Shown here piece after piece: positions 418 through 29,753 of a stretch of 64,000 nt of DNA. Positions within the stretch are counted from its first letter, which is position 1, and the number at the start of each line of letters is the position of its first letter. Both the position numbers and the translations under genes were made by a program. Origin of the DNA: Protonemura montana (Eukaryota; Arthropoda; Insecta; Plecoptera; Nemouridae); assembly GCA_947568835.1 (NCBI GenBank), contig OX387606.1:3658001-3722000 (forward strand), given 5' to 3'. The notes under the pieces are model-generated. The model was not told the DNA's origin and ran no database searches. It saw only the letters and a list, made by a program, of their open reading frames with translations.

Positions 418-3106
418 TTACATATCGGTGACTTCGAGGATCCCGCTTGCTATCAGTGGCTCGATTGCCAAAGTCTTTGTCCCTTTGACGTACAACTTTA
501 AAGTCAGAGTGGGTTTGCGAGCCTGAAACCCAAAATACGGAACCTAATTTCAGCAAAACGACACAGCGTACAGCATTTCATCCATGCAGCATTTATCGAA
601 ATGAGCACTGCAGTAAGGAAGGGAAGAGGGAGTCTTTTTGACCTCGAACAAGATCTCCCATTCTAATGAAACAATGACAAAAGCAATACATTTTAACCCA
701 TTAACGTCCAAGAGAAAACTACGAGCAAAAATTATGTTGAAATGTAATTGTTAATTGATCATGACATATAAAGCAATGTAACATATGAGAAAAAATTGAA
801 AAAATAACCTCAAACTTTTAGAGTTCAATACTATCATATAGTTTCAAAATAATCAATTACTTTCATGATAATCATAGCAAGAATACACCAAATCACGCTT
901 CGAATAGGTGTACACAAGCGTGTACGGTGTGTGGTAATGGGTTAAGGTGTGTAGGTACATGTGTCTTAAATAGTGGAGCTGAGATTCCTTTATTTTAGCC
1001 TACCCTTTTTTTCAAGAACTCAATGTGCACAACGCTGCTCTCTCATGGATGGCTGCAAGATGTGAAATCACTCGAATTGCAATTGCTAGCAATGTGCTAA
1101 GTATGTTATTATTAGGAACACTAATAACCTCTCAAAAGTTGGTACCCAAACAGGGACTTAAAACCAGACTGCCACATGTAGCGAGTGTTAAACCTAGGAG
1201 ATTAGTCTTTCTCATCAAGTACACAAAAATTCTCTCACAAATTATGTGTCGAGTAGTTCAATTGGTTACAAAAACACCTGCATAAGCCGGAGATCGGGGT
1301 TTGAGTCCCCGCTTGGCCACTAATTTTTAAAAGCGTTATCAATATTCCTCATTAATAAAATTATTGTAAGATTTTTTAAATTTCTCCCCCATTTGCACTC
1401 CAAATAACGCAATCGTCTAACTTTTTGAGTTTGCTACAATAAATAAAAGATGTGCCATTGAAGAAAAAAATAAGGCCAAAAAGTAAAAAAAAATACCAAA
1501 ATTCAGCCCCAAGAAGGGAACGTAGGCCCCGGGGTCGCGATCTCGACTAAGCGAAACTAAGTTTCGAAAGGAAATCTCAAAAACTGTAGCAACGCATAGA
1601 CTCGAGTTTTTACGGAAAGTTAACTCAAACACAGGCTCTTTAATAGACAGATATTGCACACAAATTAAATAGTAGTGCTAGCAAAAGAGAGCGAGAGAGA
1701 GAGAGAATGACTCACGAGAACGCTGGCGGTGAAAGTTTTACCCAAGAGGGCACGAGCGAGCGCATCTTGACCGGCCTTGACCGAAACGCCCGGCGCCAGT
1801 TTGAAACCCGACAGGACGGCGTTGGCCATCAGCGCTGGCAGCGTTGTCCACTCACGGCGACATTCGCACACCCTGCGGGCCAAACCAGAGCCGACTCTTG
1901 AATCGAATCGGACAGAGACAGGCATATCTAGATCGGCATCAGTACAGGTAGCCAGGGACGAGTGCCCATTTAGTGGTCACGAGTAATCCTCCATCCTGCA
2001 TATTACTATGAAGACCTAATTGTTACAGAGATTATATGGATACATGCAATTATAACACAGCAATCTGTGTTTTTAGGTTTTTAATCACTGCACAAATTAT
2101 TACTTACATTTTTACTGATCCTCTTTGAAACTCGGTGATTGTCACTTGGGCACTACAAGAACTTTATGAATTCGTCTAATAACCACCAGTTTATTATCAA
2201 GCCCTGCTTTTTGCACTTCTTAAATTTTGTGGTTATCTCTATTACTTTTTAATACTGAACTAAAAAAAGTACAGCTAAAGAGGCTGACCCTAAGGCAATG
2301 TGCAGGCAGCTGAGAAAGCATATTGCTAGCGCTATTTTCAATCTAGGCCAATGATCAAGAACGATATTTGTGGAAAGACAAGCGCACCTGTCGGGCGAGA
2401 CCTTCTCGTAGGCCGAGGTGTCCACGTCCCATACCATAAGGTCTGCGCCCCTCAGTCCCGAGAAGATCGCACGCCCCCACTGGCCGTCGCCAAACTGTGC
2501 GGCACAACACAACGCTGCCGAGAAATACAGAAGAGTTAGAGCCAGTTTGTGATCGTAGCGTCTTGCAGTACTGTCCCGCCTAACTCAAGAAAATAAATGT
2601 CAAAAAATTCTTTGGCTATCAGTTGGGCGGTGAATTCACTACCTTGCTTGAATTTGTGGCATTCTATAACTGTTTTACGCTTTTCTTGTTGAAATGATAT
2701 TCTCGACCTTAAGTCGATAATTAACTGTTCCAGCTCACAAAGAATAACTTATAGTTATTTCAAAAATGTTGATGCTGCCCACAATCCACTGTCGCTTCAC
2801 TGACTGCTCTTGCCATTAAGAACTAGTTTTGAGATACTTCTGATCTTTACGGAGGGACATTTTTGCATGCTCTGTCTACTTTTCAAGACTTGACTAGTAA
2901 ATTTACATCCGAAATGTTAAAGAACCAAGGCAATCTAGTTTATGTGCATTGGTTTTCTCTGCTGATAAAGAGCATGACAAGCATCGAAATAAATATTAAA
3001 CTACGGTAGAAAGGCAATCTTAGTGCGCTTGCTTACGGAAGGTTCTCTTTACGAGTAGCGGCTGCATCGGCGCTTCCTTCTGCATCAGTGCTTTCAGCTC
3101 TTTCAG
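418..3106 (-). other. Extended Tudor 5 and C terminus of the RNF17-like gene (degenerate core)
   Basis: Exons 28-31 encode the last 154 residues. Exon 28 ends PLLVKRTF and splices at C|GTAAGC to exon 29, whose core reads CCAAQFGDGQWGRAIFSG and then LMVWDVDTSAYEKV in place of VDYGN. Exon 30 has LPALMANAVLSGFKLAPG, the usual post-core strand. Exon 31 ends LAIEPLIASGILEVTDM and then TAA, similar in character to the C terminus of known RNF17 proteins. If exon 28 were not spliced it would stop at a TAA just downstream (about 3021). Confidence 0.78.
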
Positions 3107-6100
3107 CTGAAACAAACCATGCCATGTCAGGTCAGTGATAGATTCTTCCAGGGATGTTCCTGAAAGAAAACTCAATGTGTCAGGAGTGCTGACTCATGCA
3201 TGATAACAAAATCCAGGGGGAGAGAACGGTAGACTGACAAACAAGAACAGGACCAATCCCTGCATGAGCTCAATTATCAACTTTGCTCCGAGAGCTTGAT
3301 TTGCCGAAACTAGTGAACTCCACTGCACACACTTGACGAGACTAGCCACGCTATATTAGCCTAACAGATTGCCACCAATTCCAACTTGTGGGTAGACAAA
3401 TTTCAACAACGCAGATTTCTGTGCAAGAAATTCTGTCCAGAAATTCTGTTCGGGTTTGCAACTTCTACCCTGCCAGAATGACCACGAGCCAGGACATGAG
3501 AAGACCATGAAGGTCTTATAGGGTGAGAACAGAACGCACCTTCTCCAGCCGACTCATGGACAGGGGATCCCTTGGGATGACTCTGACTGCCTGCAAGGAC
3601 TCGACGGACTGCATGACCACCTCCACGGAGGTGGCTTTGGGGAATATGTGGTGCTGGAACTTGAGAGCGACAGCAGAGTCTGCTGCGTCTTTTTCTTTGC
3701 CACTGGCTTCCAGCTTGTCCACCGAAAGATTCAGAGACGAAGAGGCTGCTGGCACTTCTTGTATAGCCTCCTTGGTCTCCGAAACCTCTCCATCTTCAGG
3801 AACCGAACTAGACACACCTTTGCTGCCCTCTTTATCGTCGTCTGCTTTGTCTTTTTCTTTGCGACTGGCTTCCAGCTTGTCCGCTGAAAGATTCTGGGAC
3901 GAAGAGGCTGCTGGCACTTCTTGTATAGCCTCCTTGGTCTCAGAAACCTCTCCATCTTCAGGAACCGAACTAGACACACCTTTGCCGCCCTCTTTATCGT
4001 CGTCTGCTTTGTCTTTTTCTTTGCGACTGGCTTCCAGCTTCTCTGCTGAAAGATTCTGGGACGAAGAGGCTGCTGGCACTTCTTGTATAGACTCCTTGGT
4101 CTCAGAAACCTCTCCATCTTCAGGTACCGAACTAGACACATCTTCTTTATGGTCGTTTTCACAGTCCTCGAGGTCTGAAAGAAGTTCGTTTCTGGCGTCA
4201 AGGATTACATCTTCTGTGTTGTCCTCATCATCTTCATTGTCGTCGCTGTCAAAAATAATTTCCTTTTCAGAGTTGAGGGTCACACCTTCTCCAGTTCCGA
4301 GAAACAGAACTTCATCATCGTAATCTTCCTCGTTCGTGGATTTCTCACTAATAATGGAAGACTTATCACCGGCAATGTCAATCTTGTCGTCTGAAGCTTT
4401 GCTTTTACCGTCAACGATTGAATCTACCGATCCATTGAATTCAACTTGATTCGTAACGGCCACAGTGTTGTCTAGTTTGCCGTCAATCTTGATATACACT
4501 TCTTCTGAAGCAACGTCCGGATCAAAGCACTCTTCCAGCGACATCAATCCAATGGGCAACTTTACTAAGCCAACGGTTTCTTCGTCGTCTTCCTCATCGC
4601 TGCACTCGATGATGTCGGGCGAAGACTGCAAAAACATAGCATCAAGAAACCAAAATTAAGACATTTACGTAGAAAAGAATGGGTTAGGGAGAATCTATTT
4701 CTTTCATTGCAGCTTGACTAGTCAACTCATGTCCAACATAAGTCAACAATTGCTCTGAAAGCCAACTTCTAGCTTGAAATCCCCTGCCCCATTCTTGCAA
4801 ATATTTTTCAGTTGATTCGTACTGTGCCAAAGGCCTGGGATAACAAATATCTTGATTGGGAAAGTAAAGGGAGAGTCTGGAACTTACCGAGCGGGAGTGG
4901 CAGGCCGCGATAGTGAAGATTCTTTGTTTAAAGTTTCCGCTGTAGCCTTTATCACAGGAGAAGTTGACAGCGGAAACTTTACGCAAAGAATCTTCAATGT
5001 ACTTTTCCAATCAACAAATTTGTTACATATTTTTCAGTTCACTCCAGAATTTATTAGAACCACTTGGCTTGAGTTATGTGCACACTTGCCTTCTATGAAT
5101 TCGTCAACAAGCAAAGACCCCACAACACCATCCCCTTCCCAAACACCAGGCAAGGGCAACAGAAGATAAGCTACCCGAGTCAGGTATTGGATAGGTGACC
5201 ATCACACACATGACCAGTTCTGTTCGGGAGAGAGGTTGGAGGCATGAAAGTTAGAAAAACAACTTCATTTGCCTAGCTTATCAATAGAGATAGGATAGTT
5301 ATGCAAAATAAAGCCTCAAAACATGCAAGAAAAAATGGCAAAACATGCAAAAACAAATGCCAAAATAAGCAAAACATGCTAAATCCGTAAAAATAAGGTA
5401 AAAGGTGGATTAGTGGGTAAAAACATACATTTATATATTTATATCATTATGTATTTGGTTTTATCAACTATACATCAATACATCAGCACAATGGCTAACT
5501 AAAATCATTTCAATATTCAGCGGCATTAACCGATGCCGCCTATCTGATAGAATGCTTTTATATGATCTTTAACGATCTTTCAACATCACACGATGCAACT
5601 GGGGCATATTTTAAATTGCAAATTTGAGTGGGGGACAAATTATCTTCTTAAAAATCATATGTGCCTTCCACCATAATTCTCTGAACTCCACACAATAGCT
5701 TGTAAGAAACATTCTTTTAGAGCACACAGTCAAGTTTATTAAACGCTACTTTGGCACGGCCACCGGGAGCTTTAGAAAGTTCCAAGTGCAGATCTTGAAT
5801 AATCTGAAGCGATGTCGTTAGTGGTTCTCCAAACGTCTCTAGTAATTTTGGAAAGACCTAACCACTTCCCTTCTACATAAGACTCAACATCTGCGGTAAC
5901 AAAATTCCTCTATATAGATGGATTTAAGGAGATAAGATAGGAGATAAGATAAGAGAACATTTCATTTATAGAAAGGGATGAGAGGGTTGGGAACTAGATA
6001 TTCCCAGGAATTACCTATTTACCAGGTGCTTTACTGGACCCCTATTCACTAACTCGGTGCGGGTTTGGTGCGGCTTTGAAACTGCGGCTTTTGGTCGTCG

Positions 6101-9100
6101 CCTGAAAGCCGCAAAGTTTTGTGTTCACTAACTATTCGTATTTAGACCTAGCGATGGAATCGCTAAACGGGCGGAAATGTCAGAGTCGATAAGTCTGCTA
6201 AATAAGCAGAAATTCAAATATTTTCGGATGAAAAGTGACAGACGACAAGCTTGTAAGGGCCAATATCCAGCCAATTTAAAATGGCAAACAAGATAGGTTG
6301 ATTAAAAAACCTGTAATTTGGATAATGCTAACAAAAGAAGATATTTTCGAAACTATTCTTTATGCTTAGTGCATTTATCCAAAGGAATTGCGCAAGTTGG
6401 TTTTGTTGAGTCATATTTTCCAGCCTCAGATGATCCATAAATGGAAAATATGTGGGTACACAATCCATTTTCCACCGCTATCGACAAAAACCTCTCGCTA
6501 TCAAATTCTGATAAACTGATCGAGGATTAAACTTTAGATTAATATTCTTTTTTTCAGAGATCACTTTACTTTGACTTTTGCACTATCCTGAACTTAGTGA
6601 AAAAGTGCCATTTTAAGGAGTTTATTTTGGCAAGTGGAGATTAAAAAAAAAAATTGCGTAAATCCTTCGTCTATAAAATGCTCCATTTTTTAATTCTTTG
6701 GCTCGAAGAGAAATAGGCCCAAGTGAAATTTTCCAAAACTATTTCAATTTTAAAGATTTGAAATTTTAACGAGTTATCGATATTTTTCCTGCTTAATTTT
6801 TACAGGTTAGTTTGATATCATTTTTTGTACACATTATTTGAAAAAAAAACAAGAGAATATTCAGAAGATTTGGCAAAAAGACCAAAACATGCAAAAGCAT
6901 GCAAAAAACCTGAAATATTAAATTTCCGAGAAGAGTGCCCAAATATGCAAAACATGCATGGTAAAAATGGTATTTTTAGAACCAGGGAGTGATAAAATGG
7001 ATATGCTATCCACATTTCTACATGGGATTTAATGCATAAATCAAAACATGCAATTGCATAACTATCCTATCTCTACTTATCAACCTCTTGACGGCATGGA
7101 TTTGTGGAGGAATCTTGCTGTTCGAGTTGTACCGTCCTTTGTAAGAGACGTTAAGCCGGTGGTCCCCTTGGTGCTCTTCGACAGGAGTAGGCTACATGCT
7201 GGCCCCGGGTTTACTCTCCTCCCTTCTAGGGTAGGTTAGGTTAATCATGATCCTCATCCTCTCATTCACCGACGCCATTGGACCAATGCAGCAGGGCCCG
7301 TTGTCAAAACAGCGCGTCGTTAAACACCACAGTTCAAGATAAGCTACATATATTTTTTTTTTTATGTTTTCAGTTTCCACGAAACTTCCAGAGAACGCCA
7401 GGGTTTGGCTCTGCAAGGCTCACCAGTTCTTCGCGGGATTCTGGCTCGGGGATCGTCCTTGGTGTGGTACTGTGCTCAGAGCTGCGATCAGAGTCACCGG
7501 AAGACCGGGACTTGCGGGAGCGACGCTTGCGCTTGATGCTCAACGGCGAAAGGCCCGGCACCATGCCAGGCGTCACCTTTGCGTAACGTGCCACGCCCAA
7601 CACCACCAACAGCGACCCGATCTCGGTGCCATCTCCACGCACCAGAACCACCTGATGTAAAAATGGGATTTTTTGTCAAACTTCATAGCATTTATTAAAT
7701 TTTATCAACGATCAAGTGATAATGTTGCCGTTCTTGTGGAAAAATACAAACGAAAAAATTAAAATAAATTCACGTTTTTTGGCACGGTGACTATTAACAG
7801 TGTGCATCAACAAACGAAGAGTGTTCTTCTCAACAGGTGTCTATCTCGAATTGCTTTTAAAACTCGAGATGACAAAGCCAGCAGCTGGAACACATACATT
7901 ACAGCTTTCAATAACCATAACCGTATAGTTTGTTGTACCGTTAAGTGTGCAGGTTATAGGTAGAGGCAGAACGTTAATGTTAAACTTTCTGCGTGAAAGA
8001 TGGCCGCCAAATGACTACTTTACCGACGAAAATGCAGAGTACTGGAACAGGCCGTTAAGTGCAAACCACTGTCGCGTGAAATTTTACTTCGATATTTCTC
8101 GTAGGCTTACTCGCTTTTGAGACTTTTCATGCTCAAAAGATATCCATCAATGTCTACCTCAACGATTAATATACTTGTAACGATGTTCAAAAGCGAGTAA
8201 CCTACGAGAAATATCAAAATTAAATTTCATACGACAGTGCACTTAACGGGGTGTTCCGGTACTCTGCATTTTTGTCTGTAAAGCAGTCGATTGGCGGCCA
8301 TCTTTCACGCAGAAAGTTTAACATTAACGTTCTGCCTCTACCTAGAACCTGAACACTCAACAGTTGTACTGTTTCGTGTAGCAACAAGTTACCTGCTTCG
8401 AGCCCAACAAAGGCCACTGACAAAGCGAAATGCAACTCACTGTGGTGGGGTCTGGGGTGCCTTCGGGGCTCCGAACGTGCACCGTGCATTGCTTCTCGAC
8501 GACGTTCACGTGCAGCGTGTCCAGGCCGTCACGAGTCCAGCGTCCGTCCTCAGAAATCTGTCGGGCATGACCACAATCAGGACTTGGGACAACTGCAATG
8601 GCCTCTCCTCCGATTAGTTGCGCTCCCTCTCCCATACCGTATCCACTACAATCGATTTCCAGCCTCGTGGCACTCTATTCGATTGATATATATGTATTGA
8701 TGTTTAAAAAAATAATTCTTTTAATATGGAGGTTTGTTAAAAAGGTCAGTCACAATCACCATCGGGAGGTACCCACCATTACAATGTGTTCCCAGCTCAT
8801 TTGCCAAGCAGAAAGTTTAACAATAACGCTGGCCTTCTGAGGTCAGTGTGTTCAGTAGCCAGAGCCCACAGACCAGCAGAAAAGCCCCAAGCGTATGTGC
8901 TGATTTTCTGGCGGCTCCCAAGGAGCAACAGGGACACGTGGTCCCAGACACGAATATTGTGTGGAACGGACGCGTTATGAAAACGCTACTCACCGGTCGG
9001 ACGTTTGCCAGCGCCACCTTGCGGCAGAGCACGGGGATCTCAGCAAGGAACGTCGTCGGCCAGATTTCGCGCGAAGGAAGAGTGTCTAGTGAACCGTAGT

Positions 9101-12100
9101 CCACGAAGATTACTTCCCAGCAACCGTCTGACAGCTCCTGCAATCACCATCACTTTGGTTACCATCACTGTGGTGCAGTGTTGAGTAGGAACTTAACGGA
9201 AGTAACGCGTTCCTTGTAACGCGTTCTTTTTCGGGAACTTTCGCGGTAACGCGTTCTTTTTTCTTGGTAGTAACGTAACGGAATAACCGTTCCTTTATAC
9301 CAAGAACGTAAAACGACATTTACGTTCCCGTTAAAGTTCCTATTTTCGGCATTCTTGTGGGTATTTGGTATTTCATTTTTTAATCCTTTCGGGTATTTAA
9401 AAAAATAGATAAACTTGCCCATTAGCCATGTCACATGTCAAAGTAAGTTAACGCTGCATTGTTCTCGACATCCCAAAGACTGAGTTCCTCTTTCCGTCCA
9501 TGCATCATGCATTTTGCCAAAAAAAAAACCCAAGATCACTGTGCAGGTGTGGAGACTGGAGAAGCGATGAAGTGGGGTTCATCGTAAACAACCAATGAGC
9601 AATTAGCATCGTGAGGGAAGAGACACCCCCATCCCCCAAAGTATCTGCTCATCCCCCTACATTTAAATCTTTGCTTTGCCCGCGTCTCGTTCAGTTTACA
9701 GTCGTCACTCGTCCTGTGGTTTCAGTCCACGGTTTTCGCTATAGAGCCCTTAAACGTTTTACTATTCGAAAATGTTAAGCCTTTTTTTGTTGGAAGAGCA
9801 AGACGGCATTGGCTCGAATTTTCGTGCCAAATGCCTTTTGTGTGTTCCGTTTCAAAAGTTTTGGTATAAGTCGAGAATTTTTAAGGAACTGAAATAGGAA
9901 CTTAGTTCCTTTTGAGGAACTATTCAGTTCCTTTTTATTTTTAGGAACTGAAACTGAATTAAGTTCCTTTTTAAAAGGAACTTAATCAAGACTGCTTTGG
10001 TGACTTGTCAATTGGTACAAGAGAAAGGCTTGAAGCTAAATAATTAACAGAATAAAATGAGTGAGCAGACCAAACATGAATGGAAAGTATTTTCTTCCTA
10101 CAAGGAAAACACACAATTTCACACCAGAAAAATTAAATTTTCTAAAATGACTTTGAAGTTTGAGTATATAAACTTACACCTTTTGATGTTTTTCTTTAGT
10201 TACTTTCATATATGTAGTTATAGCGATCGCTATCTCAGTCTTTTCCTGACAACTTAACGTCCATTCACAACAAAAATAGCAGTTAAATGTAACGTAAACG
10301 CAAATTAGGGTTATGCGAATTATTGAACAATTTCTAATGTTAATGCCATGTCGCCGATATCGTCTAGTTCTTACTTTATTTCCTGGCACCCCTGATATAG
10401 GGACGTTGAACTCATTACCATTTCAAGGGCCAAACATCAAATGAACTCTGGTATTAGCTACCCCAGAAAGAGACTTGATTTTTGGGACACATTTTTTTTT
10501 AATAAGTCAACTTGCTCATCAAGCCTTGCAGCCCAGATCGACAGAAGACAGTTTGGTGTTATGCAAAAGCAGACAAGAAACAAATCGTACCGTTCCTGCA
10601 AGGCGCCTTTGAACCATGGAACAAGCAGGCAGGAAATATCGAAACCTATTGGCATTGCTAGAGCCACGATTATATGGTGATGCGCGAAATCGCGAATTGT
10701 TCTTATCTCTTGTTTTTCTTACAAATGAGTGCCATTCATTGAATTCCCAACTCAAATATGTAAGAAGCTCATCGCGACAAAACGCGAAATTCACGAAAAA
10801 TCATCCATAACAACGAAATCAACTACTTCCCGCGAAATCATCGCGAAATGAGCCTTTTCCCATCCAATTATCTTCAATTTCAGATAATCTGTTCTTTTTT
10901 CATTTTTATCAAACCACATTTCACGGAAAATAAATAAACAAACAAAATAACCCTTTTCACTAAAATGTGTGTATTTTGCGAAATAGCCACTAATTTCCAT
11001 TCAAAAAATTTAAATGTTTATTTTATCTCTCTAAACACACATTTCCATGAATTTGTCAGATTATTTCCCCCAGTCTTGTTGTCAGGTCTGTTCCTCATCA
11101 AACGCTGTCAACATTCCTATGTTTAGGGGGTAGAAGTAGTGGGGCAAATTGTTTGCTGTAGGAAACCATTGCCATTTGGTTGGCTGAACCTTCCCCTCCT
11201 TGCCATGTGAGCACCAGCACCACATGCATTCAGTCTATATAGAGATTAGCTGGGATTTCAAATTTCAATGGGGTGTATTACATTTTTGACTTTTGAGGAT
11301 CAAGCAAAGCAACTCTTTGTGAGTGATGGATCTATTTTGATGTGTGGAATCTAGAACAGCAGACTTGTCTGGGAGAAAAAAGACAATCTTGCAAAGTATG
11401 TTGTTAGTGCCAGGCAGTGGGTCAAATTCAAATTATCATGGACACAAAAATCTCAAACCCCTCACTGACAAACTTTTTAGTTTTAAACTCTTTTTGGAAA
11501 ATTAGTGTTACAAATAGGAGCTAATTGAAATTAATTAAATTTTGCATCAATAATAATAAAAACATGGAGCTTATACGAATAAATTTTTCTTGTGTCTTAT
11601 TTGTTTTGTAGTTTCCTTGTGGCGTAACAATGTATTTTATGAAACATAAAGGTATTAGCTACATTTTATAGGAACTTATTGAACAGAAACACTATGTTTA
11701 ACTATTCTTCTTTTTTTCGTCACCTATGTCCGAAATCTGCTATAGACATGAAATTCTGTACTTTTTCCATAACACCGCCATAACACCGAAATCCAAAAAG
11801 CTTACCACGAAATTAACGAAATCATAACACCATAAAATCTTGGCTCTACCTATTGCCATTGGACAACATTTAAAGAACTCCTAAACGAAGCAAGAAGCCT
11901 ATTTGTACCAACACGAAATCTGAAAAATAATCCCGACCCTGTCTATTACACCAAGGACATACGTGTACTGAAGAAAAAGTGTAGACAGGCATACCATTCA
12001 CGACTCCTCAACAACCGATTCAGTCTACTTACCACACAACTGAATGAGGCCAAAATAGAAGCCCTGGACAACTATATGCAGAATTTACTAAATCCTGACA

Positions 12101-18100: not shown

Positions 18101-21100
18101 GTCCCGTGTGGTGACCTTGTTACCACATGTGGATCTTGCTCAGGTTATTGTAGACTAATGCAGGAGCAACCGCTAGGTTGGACTTACTCGTTGAAGTGAT
18201 AGATGGCCGACTTGATGGAGATGAACATCTGATCAGGAGTGACACACTTGACGAACACGATCTCGGTGAGCGAGCCATCGGTGATGGACTCGGGGCGGAT
18301 CGGCATGTGGACGATGTCCTCCAGTACGGCCTGGTCGCGGCGGGTCTGGTCATCCAATGGTAGCAGCCCGTTTACGAGCGGGAAAATCTCATCCGCAAGG
18401 GACAGCGCTGGAATGGGGAGCATCGTCACACCCTGCCGCAACTGACACTTTCATATTGTTTGTCTTTTGGGATTATTTGAGGATTCGTAAGAAATATAGG
18501 TACCTGGCTCCCAAAAATACCATTGCCCGACAGCACCCCAAGCTTTCCCCATGTTTAAGTTGACATAATGACCAACTCATTAACCCCTGCAATACTAACA
18601 TTAAAATGAACACACAAAATCTATTGGGAGGGAGTGTCCTTGCATGCCGCACCTGATCCCGAGCAATGCTCAAGTGTTTGTGGCAGGACGACCACCTCCG
18701 AGTCTTCCTCGCCGTCTTCGTCGCTGTCTTCCGATTGGACGAAGCCGGGAACGGCAACGCGGACCGCCAGCTTGCTCCTCGTCAGCTCACGCGCCACATT
18801 CACGCCGGCGCTGTTGATAACCACGACTTCGTAGCGCCGCGAGGCGTCCAGGATCTACGCAATCCTTGCATTAGTGCGTTGCAGCGATCTTTGAGTGGGA
18901 TTTGTTAGGGGGGGGGGGGGGGGGGGGGGGGGTTGATTGAATTCAAACACCTAATAGATTTTATGGATAATATAAAACAAATGATGATTGACAACTTCTA
19001 GACAATGATTTTAGTTTTCACGGAAAGGGTTTCCTACAAACACGAGTCTCTCCCCACGAGTCTCAGCCCGTTGTTCTTGAGTTTGTAAAATGACTGACTT
19101 GACAAATGTCACGGGAACAGCTTTTGAGAATGTTAGAAAATGCAGAAGTTATAGATACAGACATCTTCTGAGATTTAGACTGCAAAGGGTTTTAAACAAT
19201 GAAAATCAGGCCGTACAGATACCGGAGCACCTCATTCTCTGCGCCAGCATTTGGCGTGCAATGCAACCTGTCATGCTCACATACCTTTTGCACGGTGATT
19301 TCAATGACCTGGCCCTCAGTGAGATTGTCGACCATTGCGGCGGCTTCTGAAGAGTACACCTCGGTCCCGTCAGAAGGCTCTATGCCGTACAGACGACACT
19401 CAATCGCCTGAAATATTACGCAGAAAAATATTTTGTTGAAACTTACTCGACACATGCCGATGGCTACAACGAATTTACGTATAATTTAATCTCCTATCAA
19501 GCACGTCTTACGTGTTCAGTCTTAAACGCCTCGTGTACAATTGGTTGCTCCAGTGATTACGTACCAACGGTGGTATCTTGGTAAATCGCTCAGGCAGACG
19601 GCGGATGTCATCGTTGCTGACCTCGTCCGAGTTTCCGTAGTCGACAAAGAACACCTTGACCCGGCGCTCGGGCAAGACTTCAGTCACCAGCGCCCGGTAC
19701 CACATGGCATCCACCGAGAAGTGGGCCGCACAAGCCAGTCCTGCAAGCAGCCAAATAAAAGACGTGTAAGATTACGCTTTTCAATACCGACGCTGATAGG
19801 AGCTAGGCCACAAACAGCCACATAAGAAATAACAGCGAGCTGCTAGTATTTTAGCGAATAAAATATTAAGGAAACCCACAATACTTTTCAATCTGAGTAA
19901 GAGAAGAGGAAAGTATTGGTTACGGCATTTACCGGTAGAAGGAAAGCGGTGATAGTAAGTCGCGATAGATGATTCCTGTTTTGACAAATGTTTCGATTAG
20001 TGACTTTCTAGCCAAAATGTTTAGCAACGAAAGAAATATCTGTTGCGGCGCTTTGTTTCTGCTGGGAAATGCTGTAACCATTCCACTTTCCCTTTACACA
20101 TATCCATTCACCAGCACAATACTCACCAGCATTAAACCATGAAATTTTATAGTTCAAACTTTACGTATCATTGAATCAGGTGGGCAAAAACACTGGTGTT
20201 TAAAATTGTTTTGCGCTAATCCAATTCTCTTGAACCCATTTCAAATGAATGTCTACCATTAACATTTTGCAGCAGGTATGCTCCGACTAATTAGTGATTA
20301 CCATACGTCAGTGCCTTGGGGCCTCCGCACAAGTAACTTACAGACAATTTCCAGACCTCTTGGAATAACCCAAGCGTGGCATACCGCTCATCACAATGGA
20401 TTGGTGTCAACTAGGTGTCCCTGGGACATGACAATCTAAAAGGGTCTGGTGAAAATCAAAACCAGGACTTGGTCTGTGATTCCATTTTGTACGATCTGCA
20501 TGGCAAATAGGCATGAGAACACTTGAGATACCTAAACGTACTCTATTATTTTTGGGAGAATTTAAAAACTAAAAAATCAAGTGGGTCTTATATGGACAGA
20601 GTTTTGTTGATGAAAGTCATAAAGAAGCATGGCAGCAGGCTCTCCAATACCTACATCTTCATTTTATATTAGGCTCATAGAATGTTACTTCTCAGAAAAT
20701 TATCTTTTCCTGTCAATTCAAAGAATTTAAGTAAAAAATGTGGAAGGTCTTTGAGAGAATGTAGTTTAGTGAGGCATCCCCCCCCCCCCCCTCTCCCCAC
20801 CAACATCACTCACCAAACATACCAAATTTGAGTGTGGCCTATGGGGTTTTTTAATCAAATTTCACATGTTCAATTAAGACAAAATGACAATATGGGCCCA
20901 GATTGATTACACTTGTTGGTGCCAGTATCGCTACAACAGTTCCCCGCAGACTTACCCTCCACGGGCAAGTGAACGGGCAGGTTTTCACCATCACCAGCAG
21001 CGTTGAACAGCGGCTGACAGAGTGCCGTCAGCTCTTCGTTGTGGCAAACGATCTTAGCGCTGGCGTCACGATCTTGACGGTGCACGTAGAAGCAGTCGGC

Positions 21101-24100
21101 GGTCTCGACGTGGGCCACTTGCGCGGCAAAGCACTCGTCAAGGCGCCAGCGTCGCGGCACTGGGTACGCCACTACGGGTGGCCTCTCAAAGCTCGACGGC
21201 AGATCCATCTACGGGGGAAACAAACGCGGTTAGATCATCAAGTTAGATAAGTGTTGTGGCACATTCTTCGTAGAAACAATGCAAGTGGTTTTTGAAACTT
21301 TGTGTTTGAAATAGATGGGGGAAAAGACTGATTCAATGAATTTTGCAAAGTACGATGTTTGAAGAAAATTCCACTTCGCCAATGATGTATTTGATAATTG
21401 AAAAAAAATTAAAAGTTTGGTTTGAGTTTGTGATTTGAAACTTGAAATGTAGCAGACTTTTAGTTCAAGCTCGGTTAAAATTGTGAACGGTTGGCACAAC
21501 CGTTCACTGTCAATTGATCATTGACATAAAATGAACAATTGTATGCACGATTGAAACTAGGGATGTCTGAAACAAATCGCCAATCACTCAGGTACAAAAT
21601 CGGTACTTGCGGGTAATTTTTGTTGCACAAAAAAATAAAATGGGACAAGCCTGTACCAAAAAAAAACTAGGAAAGCTATGACGATACCAAGAACTCCACT
21701 GCATGGCCATCACGCAAACAACCTACTTCCAAGTCGTTGACGGCCGGCACCGCGATGTACTGAGCGAACTGCATGAACACGGCTGCGTCGGCGACTGACA
21801 GCGGCAAGCCTGCCGGCTTGGCGCCAACAACCTCGCCCACGTCCACGTTAACCAGGCCATTCTCGACCGAGTATACGCGGCACGTCAGCCAGTTCCTGCC
21901 AGGAGGAACGAAGACACTTTCGTAACGAACAGACTCTCGGCAAATGGGGTAACAAAGTCGGGATACGATAGACTGGCCTGAATCGGTACATCATCATCAA
22001 AGCCCAGCAGTTGTGACCTTTGAATGTTATGAAATGACTTTTAATCGAGCAGCAGAGTAAAGCAAAGACCTCTCTGGGTAAAGACATAACAGTAAACTAC
22101 ATTCAGAGTCAGTTGCATTCCCCGAAAGCCACATGCCAACTCACCCGTCAGCGATCTTGACAAACCACTGTATGGCTGCATTGCTCCACTCTCCGCCTCC
22201 TCGAGGATGTGCCTTATGAAGGCAGCAATGAATGGCGAGGGGCGGCACTGTGGCCAAGGCGGGTGGCAGCGAACGGATACACCCCTGGTCGACCTGGCCC
22301 TCGTTGCCGTAGTCTATGAACAGCACGTGCGGCGCAGGAGGTTCGACGGAGCACACCAGCGCGCGGTACCAGCGACCATCGCCCGCGTACTTGGCCAGGA
22401 CGATGTTGCCTGCGCAACGCAGATAGGAGGTTAGAGGAGTCACTCAGACTGCTTTTGTTAGTAGGACTAAAATAAGAGTTTACGGTGCAAAAAGAACTAT
22501 TTTAATACTGAACTGGGGAAGTTTTTCTAAGAACTTAAAGGTTAGGGCAATGCAGAAATATAACTCAGAGTACCATACGTTTCCAAGTTACATAGGATCG
22601 GAAACGATTGTGATCTGAAAGAAAATTTAGATTCAGTTATCTATTGTCCCACTTGTTTAAGGGGCATTTACCCTACAAAATGAATTTTTACCATCGATTT
22701 GGAAGATTTAATAATGACATTTGGACTATAAAAAAAAACTCGTATGTCCACGGCCGTCCGTGCAGAAATTGTCAAAGTCCACGTTTTTAGGTTTGGGTGC
22801 TTAGAAAAACCACTCCCATAAGAAATAACCTGTAGTGCTTTTTCGACCCCTAGCACCTAGACAAACCTCTGATCAGATAAAATTCAAATAATTTGAGCAC
22901 AGTCCTCCATCCTTCCTCTGTGTTGAAATAATTTGGCTTTATGATACGATAATTCGTTTAGCCACGGTAAGCGAATTACCGCAGGTATGTAATTAGCATG
23001 TTGCATATTTTCGTGCAGTGCCGCTCTGAGCGTGCCGCGGCTGAGCCGTAGCGTGAGCGACAGCGCTCGAAAAAAGAGTTGGTAGGGAGGGGATACTCTT
23101 GGCGACTTTGGCCAACGGAGCGGCCACAGGCAAAGACAGTATTCTGAGAATCGTACTCAGCTCGCAGATCGCGCCGCGCGAAAAGCCAAAAATCTTAAAC
23201 AATTAATTGCAGATCAATTTTTTCAGAAAATTATTTTAAATAGGTCAATTTCAATTCATACTAAAGTTACAAATCTAAGGTAAAAAATAATTTTGAAGGG
23301 TAAATGCCCCTTTAAAGGTTTGAATTTTTGCCTGCCACTTATTAATGCTTTTTGTAAGAAATCATTGTTTACTACCATTATCCCAGCTTTCCCAGCCTTC
23401 TTCCATTCTTGTCGAACATGCACAAGCTAGACGCAGGCACTTTCTAACACAAAGACATTCAAGAAGATTATTATCGCAGCCAGGAAATGAAAAGTTGGCC
23501 TTGATCACGTTGGTAAGACGTCAAGATTTTCCAGACACAATTTAGAACGAATAAACTTACCGTAATCGACAGTCTCTGGTACAGCGAGCTTGCGGAACAT
23601 GCTTTGGATTTTCTTGGAGAGCCGATCGCGGAACGTCACGTCCGCAAGACGGATCACGTAGAAGTCGGACAGGTCCACGACGTGACTGATTTTCACTACC
23701 TCGCTGGTGCCTGATAGACATTACAAACAGAATTCTATTCTTATTATTTGAAAACTATATATTTTTTTCTATAATCTTTTTTACATTAAAAAAAAAAAGC
23801 AGATAAATGAGATTATGTGGCTTTTTCCATTAACTGCAGCCAAAAGAACAGAAGCTGCAAGCAAAATACCACCCTTCAGGAGACTAAATGGCTACTACCG
23901 TTATCATTTGAATCTCGGTATGGCCTCGGACATTCAAAATGCTCGAGGCTGCCAAGGTCGGATAACAACCTAAAAACATCCTGCCCAACGCAAACACAGC
24001 AGAAAAAAATCAATTGCCCGAGGGCATCTTTTTTGTACTTGGATAATTGGACAGTGGGGAAACCCGTCAACATCCCTATGCATAAATGTGGATAATAGAA

Positions 24101-27100
24101 TAAGCAGGGCTACAAGGTGATAAGCTACAAGACAACCTAAGAAGTCCCATAGACATCTTCAAACTAAGAACTGCAACTGTATACAGCAACTAACACATCA
24201 TCTATCAGCCGAGATCAATGACACTTCTATCTGAAGTTCCAGGGAATTTATTTATTGGCACAATGGAATTTTAATAACCTCAAGACGTACGTTTACGAGG
24301 CAAAAACCAACTTTAAAAAGCAACGACCGAATGACTCGATGTGCAATAGCTGCACGTACCTGGGGCAATGAATCCGTGCACGGCATCCAACGAGTCGACC
24401 TCGCCGATGCTGCCGAGGGACGAACAGACGCTGCTTGCTCGGGACTGTATTCCCTTAGGGCCCGACGGCTGTTCCAGAGCAGCGAGCAGCGCCGATGCCG
24501 CTTCCTTTCTGGGGGCCGGTAAGTCTCGAGACACAGCCCCAACCTCGGGGAGCGGAGCTGAAAAACGGAAGAAAAGCCGTCAGAAAAAAAATTGCTAGAT
24601 CGCAGGTGACCAATGTTGTCCTGAAGATATTTTTGAGACAGGCAGTTTATAAAGATTTATTTTTTATTAGATGGGGAAATAGATAACAAATGAGATACTG
24701 ATGGATAGAAGCGATGGATGAGTTACAAGTGCCCGGGTCCAATTTTATCATCTGCCTCCATCCTTTTTAGACATCCAGGGGCCTGACTTAAAGCGGCCAT
24801 TTGGCAGTGCTACCATGGTGCTACACAATACAACCAGTTGAATTGTATCGCCCAGACCTAGAGCGACACTTTCCAACATTACTTAAGTTCAGCACCACTA
24901 GCAACCGTTATTACAGTGGTATACTACAAAGGAAGCATCATCATGAAGGGAAGCTGGGTTTCAGTTCATCATAACAGTGCAGTGAGGACAAAGCAACCAA
25001 TTGCAAGAAGTGTTACTGAAGCCACAGTCCAGACTTACTGATAATGATGGTAATTAATACTACTGCTTTAGATTGGGGTTACTACTTGATGGTGCTAAGA
25101 TGATTGCTATTGACATAATATCAGAGTTAGGAAATAATCATTCTAGGTAAGGTAGCTGATAACAGCACAGGTCTTTGACCGCTTTGATACACTGGTAAAA
25201 AAGCTTATTAAAGTACAGCCAGTTTGGCAATGAAGTGACGAACCGTACCTTGGTCAATGATACCCTCGTGGAGAGTCCAGCCATCAGCGACAGTCTCGCA
25301 GCGCGGAAACACCGCCAAGCCTAAGTCGTCCGGAATTTCCAGCACTGCGCCCAAATCCATGGCATCCAGGAACACCTCCTTGTCCACGGAGAACCTGCGA
25401 GAGAACAAGTCAGCGGGACTATCCCACCTGCTCTTTGCCACGTCACATTTCTTTTGTGTCCACGAGGTGTAGCAAAAGAATACGTAATGTAAGTAAAAAA
25501 TAAATATTTAGCTCGAGGTCAAATGTGACAATATCTTCACTATTATGAGTTTTGTTGAAAATAAGGGACCTCCAAAGTGACAGCCAATCAGCCATCCACA
25601 TCCTATACTATTGTTAAGTATATGTTCATAAAACTGGCATAGTCCTGACATTGCGATTTGAGGCACTGGTATAAGGCCTTAAATGCTGTTAAACCTAAGG
25701 TTAAACAAAATGGATTGGCAAATGAAATAAATGAATAGAGATCTACCCACGATTGACGTAGCAATAAGCACAAGCACAAGCACAGCACTCGTATTAATAA
25801 AAATGTATTATCTTATGGGACTGCTCACAATCAGCAACGCGCAAGGGGCACACGCGTAGCATTTTACAATCTTCAATCCCCACTTTTTTTAATGTTTTCT
25901 TACCGTACAGAGCCGATGTCATCTCGTTTGTACAGCCGGCATGGCGCCGCGCAAGCCTCCTCCAGGCTCTGCAAGAGCCACAGACTCTCTCGTGGCTCGT
26001 ATGACTTGCTGCAAGCCGCCAGCCTGCCAGCAAAGACGTTGGCGTCAGAATCGCACCCGAATCAGTTTCAAAGCCGGGATGCTTAACCCTCTAGCGCTCC
26101 TATTTTAACTACCAACCCCAAGGGGATAACAAGATGCCATTTGTAGCCCTGGCGTTATGATTGGTAGCTCGCTGCTAATGAAACACTGTGCTAATTAACA
26201 CCACTGCTGCACCAAGCACACAATCCCAATTTCAAGTGACAGTGTAAGCACATTTTCTAGAGGCCCTAACTTGAGTAACACTTTGTGAAAATAACTGTAT
26301 TCTCCTCAATGCACAGTGATCATCATTTGAAATGCAGTATGCCTTCTTTAAAATACTAACATTGATAAACCTCTGATTTTGGTAGGTTAAGTTGCTGAAC
26401 TGACGGCAAGAATCGAACAAAAAATCCTCACCCTTTGTTGCGTTCCAGGCTTTGCACAACGCCGTCGATGAGTTTACGGCGTTCGCCTGAGGCGGCCTTG
26501 GCATCAGCAAGCTTGGCACGCAGACGCATTCCATACAACTGCACCTGTGCAAACTGCCACGCGATATGCTCCGAGATTTGCTTGTCCACGGCATCCCAGT
26601 CAGCTGGCTGGTGTTCTCCTAGATGCAATACCTGTAGAGCATCGAGCGGGGTCAGAGATTCGCGAGGATTTTGTTGGTTAGCAACAATAGCGGATCAAAA
26701 CAGTTCCCAATAGCACGTGAGAAATTATGCACCGACCTTGATTGTGTTTTCCTGTTCGCGCCGTACTTCTTGAGCTTCAAGCACCAGCTCTTTTATCTTT
26801 GGTTCATACTTTGGCCCCTGAAAGCAGATTGGGTGTATTTTATTAATTGTCGTGAAATTGTTACTATTTTACTTACAATTCACTCTTATATATTAAAATG
26901 GCCATCAGTTTTTAAATGTTGTCTAATGTATACTATTTATATACTATTAATTAATTACAAAATACTTTTCTTTACCTTTTCTTAGGGTTTAACAAGTAGC
27001 ATTGGCAATTTACATAAAGCTTTTCCAAAGAGGATAACATTTTTTGAGATAGCAAAGAATAAAGCTTCTCCATTTATAATGAAGCTGTCACAGTTAGCAA

Positions 27101-29753
27101 GGAACATATAAGTGATCCAAATAGTCAACTGCATTAATTACTCATCTCATCTAATAAAAAATAAAGCCTGACAATAGTGGTTGCACGAGAGTTCCAAGCG
27201 GAACTACCAACCATGTACGTACCAGGTCTCCCATGAATGCAATTTGATGCCCCTGGTGTTCTCCTTTCTGCAGCAGGTTGCAGTACGCGCAAATTGCGAC
27301 GTCACAATCCTGACAGAGGAACTCGAGCCTCTGTTCAGTGTGCGTTGCACAGAATATGCGTGGCTTCACTATTGGCACCAACTGCACCGCTTGCGGAGCA
27401 GAGGGCTGAAATGTTTGGCCACTTAGCGCTATTACGCGGTGTGTAGTTTGCTCAGCCGGCCCGTGTCTCTGTTGGTTGCCAAATGAGGTTTGCTCAAATT
27501 CCAGTGGCATTGAAAAAATGTTACTCTATGTGTATTTATGGTCTCTTTTCTTCACAGAGGTTAAAAGATTTGAGCAAATGTATCAAATAAGTTCAGTAAT
27601 TAGCATGCAATCAGCATTTGATTCAAATTAAATGCTTACCTTACTCAAGCACTTCTGACAATAGTTTTTGGCACATTTAATACAATTTACAATTGCCAAA
27701 TCAAACTGGCACACATCACATTCACCTGCAAGGAAATGTGATAATTTACTGCCTTGATAATGAATAATACAACTCCACGTGTATCAAATAGACAATTGTC
27801 ACATTTAAAGATTAATTTGTGACCTAGGCAGTGTTATCAGTGACAGCCTATAAGTTTGTTATCACTATCAGTTTCTAGCTATTCCAGCTGTGTGCATACA
27901 AAAAAGTCATACTGAACACTATCTTGTCAGTCAGAAACACTAAAAAACCATCCTTCCTCTATTGACAAAAATATCCTCAAAATTCCCATGGCAAAAAAAA
28001 ACAAAAAAAACTTAGTGTTGAGAAGTTGAGAAGTAGTGTTGTGCTAAGCTAAAATAAAAAAAGTTTTTCTTTTGGAATACAGGCAAATTCAGATTGTGCA
28101 AGGCTGATATTGCTCTGCTCAAAATACCGGGTAGTTTTTTAAGGGTTTTTTTTAACAATTCACGCTTAAAAAGTCCAAAAAACAATAAAAGCTGCAGATC
28201 ACTAAAAATAAATGAAAGTGTAATGATTTAAATTTAAAATTAGTAACTGCATTTCATATTTAAGAAGCCCTGGGAAGATTTAGTTAAAACTAGGTGTACT
28301 TACACATAAATAAACTTTGGGTTTGGAAAAATTTCCCATGTCAAAATATTTTTTTTTTTTTGCGTTTGATGGGCCTGCAATGCCAGCACCAGCAACAGGT
28401 TCACTGTCCTTCTGATTGGCCCTAGGTGTCCTAATTTTTTTTTGTCAATTTTTGTGTGCTTTTCAAACAAATTTACTAATGCAACTTCAAGTTCTTTATA
28501 TTTGGCAATTTGGCGCTTCTTTGCTATAACAGCATATCTGCATGGATTTGCTGGTATTCTGACCAATTCTGACCATCATATCTATAATCATATTCAAGAC
28601 AATGATGGGAGAGCTTTTGGCCACTGCCAACTGGCAGAATTATGTGGCGCCCGGCCATCCAACAATAAGAAATAATTAAATTTGCTTTCGCTCCAGTGAA
28701 TGCGCAACCGGCACAGGTAAATGACACAACTTAACTAGGTAGGAAACAAACATCACCTCAATCCAATAATCGCAGCTGTTCCTCGGTAACAAGTTAAATC
28801 CTGATCTATCTCCAGCACTTGAGAACAATAAATTGTATCATGTACAAACTATTCAAACCAACAGAAATCAACATTGAAATTTAAAGTGTAAAAAAATTCC
28901 AAGAAAACCTACTAGGATGGTTTTTTAACTACCTCAAAATAGTGCAACGAAATCTCGAACACGTGCTGGGTGATCCCCTGAAGTGAAGAGGGTGTAATTT
29001 TATAGTTAAATGGGTTATGGGCTATATAGGCATGTAATGCATACAAAACATCACAATTGGAAAAATGGAAAATGTATTTGTATTTTGAAGAGTCAACTTG
29101 GGGAGGGTCTGTGCCCATTTGCCCAAAGCATGGGCTGCCTCGGCACTAAACTCATGGTATACAAATGCTTACTTTTCTCTTCAGGAACTGACAACGTCTT
29201 CTTTTTGGATTTGATGCCACTTAAGGGAGCCCCCGCAGGCAAATATTGTGGTCCGGGAAAAGGTGGTTGCTTTTGCCTTGCTTCTGAAATGAGGATCAGT
29301 CCTCCCATAATTCCCAAGTGAGGGGGAAATCCAGTTCTATGCATGTCCAGGCGCCGATGTGCTACAATTCCACATTCCCTACACTGAAGTCCATCTCGGA
29401 AAGATCCTCCACAGAGGACACATATCGCATGACCACAGGGTAAAATCACAGGCATTCGACTTCCACCTACCCCAGGATTCGCTGAAATGTAACAAACATT
29501 AAAATGCCAATGGGTATATAAGGATTCGTTGTGGTTAACTTTGCCAATTTGTCTAAGTACGGAAATACATTAGCAATGCGCACAAACTTATGTACCGGTC
29601 GTGAATCCGCCACCTTACACTGTAACCTAGAAATGAATCCTGCAAGCAACTGCAAAATCAAAACTGTAATTCTGGGTTTATGGCATTACCGTTGAAAAAG
29701 AAATTTTTTCTGCAGTGTGTGCACGCCACAGAGGGTGCGAAAGTTGTCTCCAT
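418..29753 (-). CDS. RNF17: RNF17/Qin-type RING, B-box, five-Tudor piRNA-pathway protein, about 31 coding exons
   Basis: Germline Tudor scaffold. Family members (vertebrate RNF17/TDRD4, Drosophila Qin/Kumo) act in nuage and piRNA silencing. Exons, 5' to 3': 29753-29690, 29481-29173, 27725-27640, 27468-27223, 26817-26737, 26631-26432, 26023-25904, 25394-25249, 24557-24360, 23710-23561, 22409-22145, 21895-21727, 21208-20956, 19740-19565, 19407-19285, 18854-18653, 18432-18188, 17740-17587, 17069-16860, 16337-16195, 15985-15895, 15449-15284, 14267-14116, 9137-8994, 8557-8441, 7651-7424, 4625-3540, 3106-3037, 2514-2388, 1872-1716, 522-418. Order of domains: RING (about 11-65), two B-boxes (125-230), helical region (236-417), five extended Tudors (484-1995), with a 362-residue acidic exon between Tudors 4 and 5. 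The start is the ATG just before the first RING cysteines; the stop is TAA at 418-420. About 1,994 residues. The join 18653/18432 is out of phase by one base; every other join agrees. The RNF17/Qin call is secure from architecture; choosing between the two names is convention. Confidence 0.9.
1248..1320 (+). repeat. tRNA-like sequence, probably a tRNA-derived SINE head
   Basis: An A-box-like word TAGTTCAATTGG lies at 1254-1265 and a B-box-like word GGTTTGAGTCC at 1298-1308, inside a GGGG-loop-CCCC T-arm. The 5' half does not pair convincingly with the 3' end, so this is more likely a SINE head or tRNA pseudogene than a working tRNA. It lies in the last intron of the RNF17-like gene. Confidence 0.5.
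3540..4625 (-). other. Long acidic exon with three 54-residue repeats (RNF17-like gene)
   Basis: A 1,086-bp exon encodes 362 residues dominated by Asp, Glu, Ser and Lys, with no cysteine-rich or enzymatic motif. The last third consists of two full copies and one diverged copy of a 54-residue unit that begins VSSSVPEDGEVSETKE and contains EVPAASSSQNLS and KLEASRKEKDKADDDKEG. The exon has a clean acceptor (4626-4628) and donor (3534-3539), both phase 0, and links Tudor 4 to Tudor 5. It is probably a disordered spacer. Confidence 0.85.
3680..4140 (-). repeat. Three tandem 162-bp coding units
   Basis: The + strand word accgaacta recurs at 3802, 3964 and 4126, a spacing of exactly 162 bp. The units encode the 54-residue acidic repeat. 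Units 1 and 2 are nearly identical, and the one nearest the 3' end of the exon is more diverged (Leu for Gln, Gly for Arg). The period is a multiple of three, so copy-number changes keep the frame. Confidence 0.9.
4852..5014. repeat. Interrupted hairpin element
   Basis: Positions 4915-4943 and 4967-4995 form a near-perfect inverted repeat around a 23-bp loop. Positions 4852-4866 (ttgattgggaaagta) pair with 5000-5014 further out. The left arm carries extra sequence between the two paired blocks. It probably represents a small fold-back or decayed MITE in the intron before the acidic exon. Confidence 0.6.
5175..7330 (+). mobile_element. 5S-rRNA-headed SINE, split by a hAT-like insertion
   Basis: 5175-5284 and 7076-7330 are the two parts of one SINE whose intact relatives lie at 43951 and 45871. 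The head resembles the internal promoter of 5S rRNA (GTATTGGATAGGTGACC), so it belongs to the SINE3-like class. The body shares GACGGCATGGATTTGTGG, and the tail shares GTCGTTAAACACCAC. The 5' end is truncated. The interruption is precise and flanked by a target duplication. Confidence 0.8.
5285..7075. mobile_element. Non-autonomous hAT-like transposon, 1,791 bp
   Basis: The terminal inverted repeats are perfect for 21 bp, beginning TAGAGATAGGATAGTTATGC at 5285 and mirrored at 7055-7075. They are flanked by an identical 8-bp target duplication CTTATCAA (5277-5284 and 7076-7083). Just inside each end are several copies of AAAACATGCAA, the clustered subterminal repeats expected for hAT transposase binding. 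No transposase-length reading frame exists, so it would need a helper in trans. An 8-bp duplication is characteristic of the hAT superfamily. Confidence 0.88.
7939..8362. repeat. Fold-back (long inverted repeat) element
   Basis: The left arm (about 7939-8120) and right arm (about 8187-8362) are inverted copies with scattered mismatches. Both contain TAGAGGCAGAACGTTAATG, AGATGGCCGCCAA, and a CTCGTAGG..ACTCGCTTTTGA block, around a spacer of about 65 bp. It lies in the intron between exons 25 and 26 of the RNF17-like gene. No reading frame is present. It could be a MITE or an inverted duplication of one repeat family. Confidence 0.75.
9176..9994. mobile_element. Non-autonomous hAT-like element, 819 bp
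   Basis: The left end begins CAGTGTTGAGTAGG. The reverse complement of the right end begins CAGTCTTGATTAAG, so the ends are imperfect inverted repeats with the CAG start common in hAT elements. The flanks CTGTGGTG (9168-9175) and CTTTGGTG (9995-10002) match in 7 of 8 bases, a decayed 8-bp target duplication. Both ends carry many GGAAC/GTTCC subterminal motifs. No transposase is seen. Confidence 0.72.
10659..11848. mobile_element. hAT-like non-autonomous element nested in the LINE, 1,190 bp
   Basis: The ends are inverted repeats: TAGAGCCACGATTATATGGTG at the left matches the reverse complement of the right end with two mismatches. The 8-bp flanks are GGCATTGC and CCTATTGC, a poorly preserved target duplication (5 of 8 match). 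Removing the element and one flank restores the LINE reading frame. Subterminal CGAAAT/ATTTCG words are repeated at both ends. No transposase frame is present. Confidence 0.7.
11860..13870 (+). pseudogene. LINE reverse transcriptase, frameshifted remnant
   Basis: The reverse transcriptase domain shows LLDFSKAFDVVPH (motif with the first catalytic Asp), GVTQGSVLGPALF, YINDL and FADDC, the last being the catalytic DD pair of the usual FADD box. A C-terminal LINE region ends near WNNLPPSTMNTL. An upstream frame (12076-12339) that stops near 12337 and the main frame (from 12206) overlap, so one base has been lost or gained near 12325. The element lacks the N-terminal endonuclease. It is unlikely to be active. 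Confidence 0.85.
14300..15120. other. Intron sequence without a recognised element
   Basis: This lies between exons 22 and 23 of the RNF17-like gene. I see short AT-rich runs and low-complexity pyrimidine stretches near 15000-15060, but no exon, no terminal repeats and no coding similarity. Confidence 0.4.
15895..18432 (-). other. Extended Tudor 3 of the RNF17-like gene (degenerate core)
   Basis: Exons 17-21 (residues about 930-1210). The SN-like part contains LTEIVFVKCVTPDQMFISI. The core keeps GDRCAALHSADRKWHRGIV, but the strand that normally reads VDYGN reads AVALIELRDIV. The module therefore probably lacks methyl-arginine binding and may serve a structural role. Exons 18-19 and 19-20 join in phase 0; 20-21 joins in phase 2. 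Confidence 0.75.
18909..18933 (+). repeat. Poly-G run
   Basis: About 25 consecutive G residues lie in the intron just upstream of RNF17 exon 16. The run is prone to length error in sequencing. It lies near the only phase conflict in the gene model, but it is itself intronic. Confidence 0.9.
20779..20792 (+). repeat. Poly-C run
   Basis: About 14 C residues sit in the intron between exons 13 and 14 of the RNF17-like gene. Similar C runs lie near 36003 and 57993, so long G/C homopolymers are recurrent in this genome. Confidence 0.85.
21727..23710 (-). other. Extended Tudor 1 of the RNF17-like gene (cage intact)
   Basis: Exons 10-12 encode an extended Tudor (residues about 484-678). The SN-like N-terminal strand reads VKISHVVDLSDFYVIRL. 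The Tudor core has GDGRWYRALV followed by LFIDYGNEG, so the Trp/Tyr and D-Y-G-N positions that bind symmetric dimethylarginine in Piwi proteins are present. The C-terminal SN-like half follows, DGNWLTCRVYSVENGLVNVD. The split of the SN-like fold around the Tudor core is typical of eTud modules. Confidence 0.85.
24360..26817 (-). other. Helical (coiled-coil) and linker region of the RNF17-like gene
   Basis: Exons 5-9 encode residues about 236-483. Exons 5 to 7 are rich in Glu, Lys, Gln and Leu with a heptad-like pattern (for example KELVLEAQEVRREQE), as expected for the coiled coil that follows B-boxes in TRIM-like proteins. Exon 8 looks folded, and exon 9 is a Ser/Pro/Ala-rich linker before Tudor 1. 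Phases across the five exons are 0, 2, 2, 1 and 1 and all join cleanly. No catalytic motif is seen. Confidence 0.7.
27223..29753 (-). other. RING plus two B-box zinc fingers of the RNF17-like gene
   Basis: This is the N-terminal E3-like module, residues 1-235. The RING ligands are CTHC at residues 11-14, then CGHAICVLC, then CREC, giving the C-x2-C / C-x-H-x2-C-x2-C / C-x2-C order. Exon 3 (27725-27640) is a B-box1-like finger with CDVC, CIKC and CQKC pairs. Exon 4 holds a canonical B-box2 with C-x2-H, CQDC, CAYC and a closing H-x2-H. The exon 2 donor (AAA A|GT) joins exon 3 in phase across a 1.45 kb intron. The exon 4 acceptor could be at 27468 or at 27405; both keep the frame. Drosophila Qin also has RING and B-box domains, whereas human RNF17 is usually described with RING plus Tudors. 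Confidence 0.88.

Follow-up and report, generated by a model that had tools for sequence, protein, structure and literature searches.

Do the short exons spread over the first 29 kb of a stretch of the genome of Protonemura montana (Plecoptera, Nemouridae) form a single gene, and is that gene a counterpart of RNF17 and Qin? Relatives of RNF17 (in mammals) and Qin (in flies) help small RNAs to silence jumping genes. B-box zinc fingers following a RING are a feature of RNF17/TDRD4/Qin, and two B-boxes combined with five Tudor domains make up the Qin/Kumo layout. The window considered here is the whole stretch analysed, 64,000 nucleotides of contig OX387606.1 (assembly GCA_947568835.1, positions 3,658,001 to 3,722,000), and all positions below are counted from its first letter. 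We consider it probable, at roughly 0.8, that it carries an apparently single-copy RNF17/Qin (TDRD4) orthologue of this insect, acting as a germ-granule scaffold for ping-pong.

Read from the sequence along the minus strand, from 29753 to 418, 31 coding exons are joined through introns that all have GT-AG ends (30/30), in phases that agree throughout, into a protein of 1,985 amino acids with no internal stop. The original prediction had given the same start and end, which are identical in the rebuilt chain, and had counted 31 exons in frame with one exception; the 31 in-frame exons stand, while no frame exception was found. The domains it had announced (RING, B-box1, B-box2, helical region and five extended Tudors) are all recovered in the joined protein, the RING by motif and the helical region by a weak match, and this earlier model and its reading are right once exon 4 is extended. 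The first version of the chain encoded 1,964 amino acids, to which the corrected exon 4 adds 21; most of the domain, PDB and statistical figures given here come from that first model, in which every residue beyond 153 carries a number 21 below that of the final one. The features are as follows:

418..29753, minus strand: RNF17/Qin-type gene, coding span (31 exons, 1,985 aa)
29173..29753, minus strand: exons 1-2, RING finger (eight C3HC4 ligands C11, C14, C37, H39, C42, C45, C55 and C58)
27640..27725, minus strand: exon 3, six cysteines of B-box1 (ligand motif)
27223..27468, minus strand: exon 4 with corrected start at 27468, last two histidines of B-box1 followed by B-box2 (B-box2 fragment, PF00643, E=3.8e-11)
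24360..26817, minus strand: exons 5-9, linker and partly TRIM-like helical region (weak TRIM3 match across exons 4-7, E=2.7e-4)
21727..23710, minus strand: exons 10-12, extended Tudor 1 with complete aromatic cage (PDB matches to Drosophila Tudor, E=5.7e-9, and to TDRD1)
18653..21208, minus strand: exons 13-16, extended Tudor 2 with complete aromatic cage (TDRD1 4b9w, E=6.1e-16, aa 687-840 of the first model)
16195..18407, minus strand: exons 17-20, extended Tudor 3, cage lost (Drosophila Qin 7oc3, E=1.4e-11)
15895..15985, minus strand: exon 21, short linker between Tudors 3 and 4 (gene model)
7424..15449, minus strand: exons 22-26, extended Tudor 4, cage nearly complete (DYGS; Drosophila dSND1 2wac, E=7.1e-12, across exons 22-25)
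3540..4625, minus strand: exon 27, acidic linker of 362 aa with about three tandem copies of 54 aa (gene model and repeat)
418..3106, minus strand: exons 28-31, extended Tudor 5, degenerate, cage lost (TDRD1 5m9n, E=0.0012)

Several properties of the first model are those of a real coding chain. GC content is 0.566 in exons vs 0.393 in introns, and 29 to 87 stops interrupt each of the five remaining frames once the exons are spliced. When 2000 chains were drawn at random from AG-started segments, with the 31 exon lengths preserved, none stayed open and the longest ran through 3 exons. At least 7 of 9 consensus positions are found in 25 of the 30 donors, against 4.6% of 1818 GT sites, a comparison that is partly circular since the sites were chosen by eye. 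The start ATG has an A at -3 and a G at +4; a longer N-terminus than the chosen ATG provides is possible, because the frame is open upstream to a stop at 29879 and contains one more ATG, 34 codons before the chosen start. Support for the joins themselves comes from homology: 18 of the 30 junctions are spanned, with 3 aa or more to spare, by a match to a Pfam domain or a solved structure, among them that of the 4,978-base intron 23, which splits Tudor 4. Seven of these 18 fall in weak matches, namely 1-2 (RING, under cut-off), 4-5, 5-6 and 6-7 (TRIM3, E=2.7e-4), and 28-29, 29-30 and 30-31 (TDRD1, E=0.0012). The 12 junctions that fall outside any such match are 2-3, 7-8, 8-9, 9-10, 12-13, 15-16, 16-17, 20-21, 21-22, 25-26, 26-27 and 27-28.

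Could the last three of these mark the border between two neighbouring genes, one with RING, B-boxes and four Tudors ending near 7370, the other a small one consisting of Tudor 5 preceded by the acidic linker (4637 to 418)? Besides the lack of homology at these joins, exon 26 can be read past its donor to a stop at 7370, and an ATG at 4637 lies 12 bases upstream of exon 27 and in frame with it. Yet intron 26, which leads from Tudor 4 to the linker and Tudor 5, has GT-AG sites and matching phases, the joined protein has five Tudors, the number found in Qin, and it would take a coincidence to place a solitary, degenerate Tudor gene immediately downstream in the matching phase. Two separate genes are, in our view, unlikely, and a single 31-exon gene is retained. 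Such a gene may nevertheless have alternative ends: reading past exon 26 to 7370 would terminate the protein after Tudor 4, reading past exon 28 to the stop at 3021 would terminate it before Tudor 5, and, going by the sequence, either end might be used.

The N-terminal RING finger is present by motif, not by curated score. As a 72-aa fragment it matches Pfam zf-RING_5 with E=4.5e-5 and 23.8 bits (cut-off 27.9), C1_1 scores above zf-RING_5 (E=1e-5, 25.7 bits) yet under its own cut-off of 26.5, Pfam lists no RING family for the full first-model protein, and NCBIfam gives no match for the RING. In RINGs of active ligases, a hydrophobic residue contacting the E2 typically occurs in the first C-x-x-C, a Pro in the last C-x-x-C, and a linchpin Arg after it. 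The RING here appears to be devoid of these residues, and the protein may or may not act as a ubiquitin ligase; for Qin itself, such activity is implied by the title of a 2011 paper by Zhang and colleagues.

The B-box region follows, and its completeness depends on exon 4. In the first model this exon (27405-27223) left B-box1 without its last two zinc ligands, whereas the acceptor at 27470-27469 (exon 27468-27223) restores them as H155 and H163. This correction takes the PF22586 score of the B-box1 fragment past the cut-off of 27 (31.3 bits, previously 22.7), while PF00643 gives 21.6 bits instead of 12.0 and stays short of its cut-off of 24.1; the B-box2 fragment obtains 43.4 bits against the same cut-off, and B-box2 is also found on the full protein. 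The start at 27405, with which B-box1 would be incomplete, was replaced by 27468 because of this Pfam gain and of the ligand spacing. Splice sites do not discriminate, as the five open acceptors of exon 4 are not separated by pyrimidine score (5-6 of 12) and the 27405 acceptor (TTTCAG) appears no poorer than its 27468 alternative; nor does the match to MID1 help, since its whole-sequence score is 31.8 bits instead of 31.2 and its best single stretch drops from 30.2 to 25.2 bits. The tandem of B-box1 and B-box2 is shared with MID1 and other TRIM proteins (2jun, E=1.2e-6), and of the TRIM-type layout (RING, B-boxes, coiled coil, C-terminal domain) the RING motif and the B-boxes are present, the helical region giving a weak TRIM3 match (E=2.7e-4). 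In contrast to TRIMs, Tudors are found here where those proteins have TRIM C-terminal domains.

Five stretches of the full first-model protein match Pfam TUDOR (E=3.9e-85). Taken as fragments, Tudor 3 reaches 30.1 bits against a cut-off of 23 and Tudor 5 falls just under it with 22.7 bits. The acidic linker before Tudor 5 owes its 54-aa units to a 162-base tandem repeat at 3678-4144 (2.9 copies, 95% matches). In the alignment, at the positions that we take, from SND1 and Tudor structures, to form the aromatic cage, Tudors 1 and 2 keep all residues (Y/F, Y, F, Y, N), and Tudor 4 differs by an S at the N position. The same positions read H, H, L, I, C in Tudor 3 and F, G, D, T, A in Tudor 5. An AlphaFold prediction of the core exon of Tudor 1 (22147-22407) had a mean pLDDT of 40.4 and was left unused. 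A split of tasks between the Tudors is a tentative proposal from these residues: Tudors 1, 2 and 4 might read methylated arginine, and the cage-less Tudors 3 and 5 might bind by another mode.

To which family of multi-Tudor proteins does the gene belong? In the PDB, Tudor 3 matches Drosophila Qin (7oc3) with the E-value listed above, the next match being TDRD3 (E=8.1e-5), and the alignment covers residues 57-238 of the 242 of 7oc3 over 182 residues, crossing three splice junctions. The reverse comparison, in which the Qin fragment was set against each of the five Tudors together with 755 ORFs (45 aa or longer) of other Tudor loci (15 stretches covering at least 27 Tudor matches outside the window), gives 45.6 bits for Tudor 3 vs 20.6 bits for the best other ORF; this somewhat favours Tudor 3, as the paralogue ORFs were unjoined over introns, several of them being long all the same. 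When the Qin fragment is searched exon by exon in the genome, a locus on contig C11 comes first (E=0.10) and the RNF17/Qin locus has E=0.83, a ranking that we attribute to the spread of Tudor 3 over four exons; once joined, Tudor 3 wins.

The remaining Tudors could be taken to indicate a protein of another family, of TDRD1 or Tudor/TDRD6 type, having gained a TRIM-like N-terminus independently: the best PDB matches of Tudors 1, 2, 4 and 5 are with TDRD1, Tudor or SND1, although 7oc3 is the sole Qin-named chain among the results and the matches include no RNF17- or TDRD4-named chain. Such an origin is very unlikely, given that the match of Tudor 3 is specific to Qin and reciprocal, and that a separate multi-Tudor locus with a 710-aa frame lies on contig C11; the MYND zinc finger, a feature of TDRD1, is absent among the six Pfam families found at E<=1 on the full protein. 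The RNF17/Qin identity proposed in the original prediction is upheld by the domain order and by the reciprocal preference of Tudor 3 and Drosophila Qin, orthology being drawn from one domain of one member of the family.

The gene appears to have no second copy: with its first 1,519 residues as query (exons 28-31 lying outside it), 27 of 31 genome matches fall in the RNF17/Qin locus and identity does not exceed 37% in the remaining 4, 31 of 40 candidates having been scored. It is hardly conceivable that the locus itself is a decayed or non-expressed copy. Its Tudor 5 and RING are divergent and its introns contain sequence resembling mobile elements, but 1,985 codons are open, all 30 introns keep GT-AG ends, and the same 1,519-residue query found no better copy in the genome.

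The introns contain several elements of their own. A 563-aa frame with a reverse transcriptase match (PF00078, E=2.7e-34) occupies 12176-13867 on the plus strand, antisense in intron 23 and inside the coding region of Tudor 4, and appears LINE-like by eye. An inverted repeat at 7937-8364, in intron 25, has 127-base arms that are 91% complementary and a second pair of 39 bases, and looks like a small foldback mobile element. A run of 25 G is found on the plus strand of intron 15 (18908-18932).

Other genes share the window. The plus strand carries at least two ends of sulfotransferase genes (PF00685, E=4.3e-20 and 3.6e-21) between about 32700 and 47600, where the frames 32730-33287 and 41869-42153 resemble sulfotransferase ends by eye with no Pfam match, and the region is probably a tandem sulfotransferase array. 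Further along, on the minus strand, an uninterrupted frame at 59442-60605 encodes TAM41, the mitochondrial phosphatidate cytidylyltransferase (PF09139, E=1.5e-108), and a 320-aa frame at 58204-59166 contains, by eye, about nine tandem copies of a 14-aa unit, ESIGPSLPPHLQKP; the latter has no Pfam match and is reminiscent of GPALPP1.

Compared with known systems, the closest is Drosophila Qin/Kumo, given as a RING plus extended Tudors in the available part of PMC12014135. Tudor 3 aligns along 7oc3, whose cage positions read V, Y, L, L, E, so that the cage lost here is also mostly lost in Qin (1/5 kept, a Tyr). The two proteins differ in length, 1,985 aa here vs 1,857 in Qin according to the accessible text of PMC12014135, the domain comparison being limited to 7oc3. 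Likeness to mammalian RNF17/TDRD4 lies in the description of TDRD4/Qin as a ZnF-RING plus multiple Tudors (PMC12147562, as far as its text is available). B-boxes or five Tudors go unmentioned in the passages available from PMC12014135 and PMC12147562 that describe Qin. Qin is paired with mouse Rnf17 as its counterpart in the available portions of PMC4269861 and PMC12014135, and mammalian RNF17 is required for spermiogenesis (PMC3929691, available in part).

By analogy with these systems, the protein would serve ping-pong piRNA amplification as a scaffold in germ granules. Methylated arginines of PIWI proteins would be bound by Tudors 1, 2 and probably 4, the cage-less Tudors 3 and 5 would offer methylation-independent docking surfaces, and assembly of the protein would fall to the RING/B-box/helical part, whether or not this acts as a ubiquitin ligase. 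Together these parts would hold Aub/Siwi-type and Ago3-type PIWI proteins together with Vasa or Spn-E, the outcome being ping-pong between different PIWIs rather than within one (heterotypic). According to the accessible part of PMC11094040, Vasa, Siwi, BmAgo3 and Qin form the silkworm 'Amplifier' complex, Spn-E, Siwi and Qin another complex, and Aub-Aub ping-pong is increased in fly qin mutants; a role like that of silkworm Qin (BmQin) in both complexes would be expected here. BmQin differs in its reported location, silkworm Spn-E and Qin being placed in P-bodies rather than nuage in the same text, and PMC12014135, in its available part, assigns fly Qin to nuage. In the wasp Nasonia, Nv-qin is given as an oosome transcript (PMC6785909, available part).

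A PIWI partner is found in the genome, where a 148-aa frame matches silkworm Siwi best (E=3.4e-33 vs 1e-10 for the best Argonaute); it is one of six places that together hold 23 PIWI-domain matches. Elsewhere in this genome, a 270-aa frame of a hemocyanin-family gene has an insect arylphorin, a storage protein, as best match (E=3.7e-69), which marks the host as an insect, and a cluster of several hemocyanin-family matches (G000:C5:7158099-7195289) is perhaps a prophenoloxidase array.

What does this locus bring to the family? Our literature search, which covered few subscription papers, found no report on RNF17/Qin of this species, a weak negative. The gene is an ordinary one, extending a known transposon-defence factor to one more insect. 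Its short exons, the 5-kb intron with a reverse transcriptase frame in Tudor 4 and the 2.8-kb intron that precedes the final linker and Tudor 5 make it easily split in annotation, for which a correct 31-exon model is useful. If the proposed split of Tudor tasks is true, the methylation-independent surface of Tudor 3 would be an ancient and conserved element of the scaffold for ping-pong, because the loss of its cage is largely common to Drosophila Qin; this shared loss is a small, testable point on how Qin may dock its partners.
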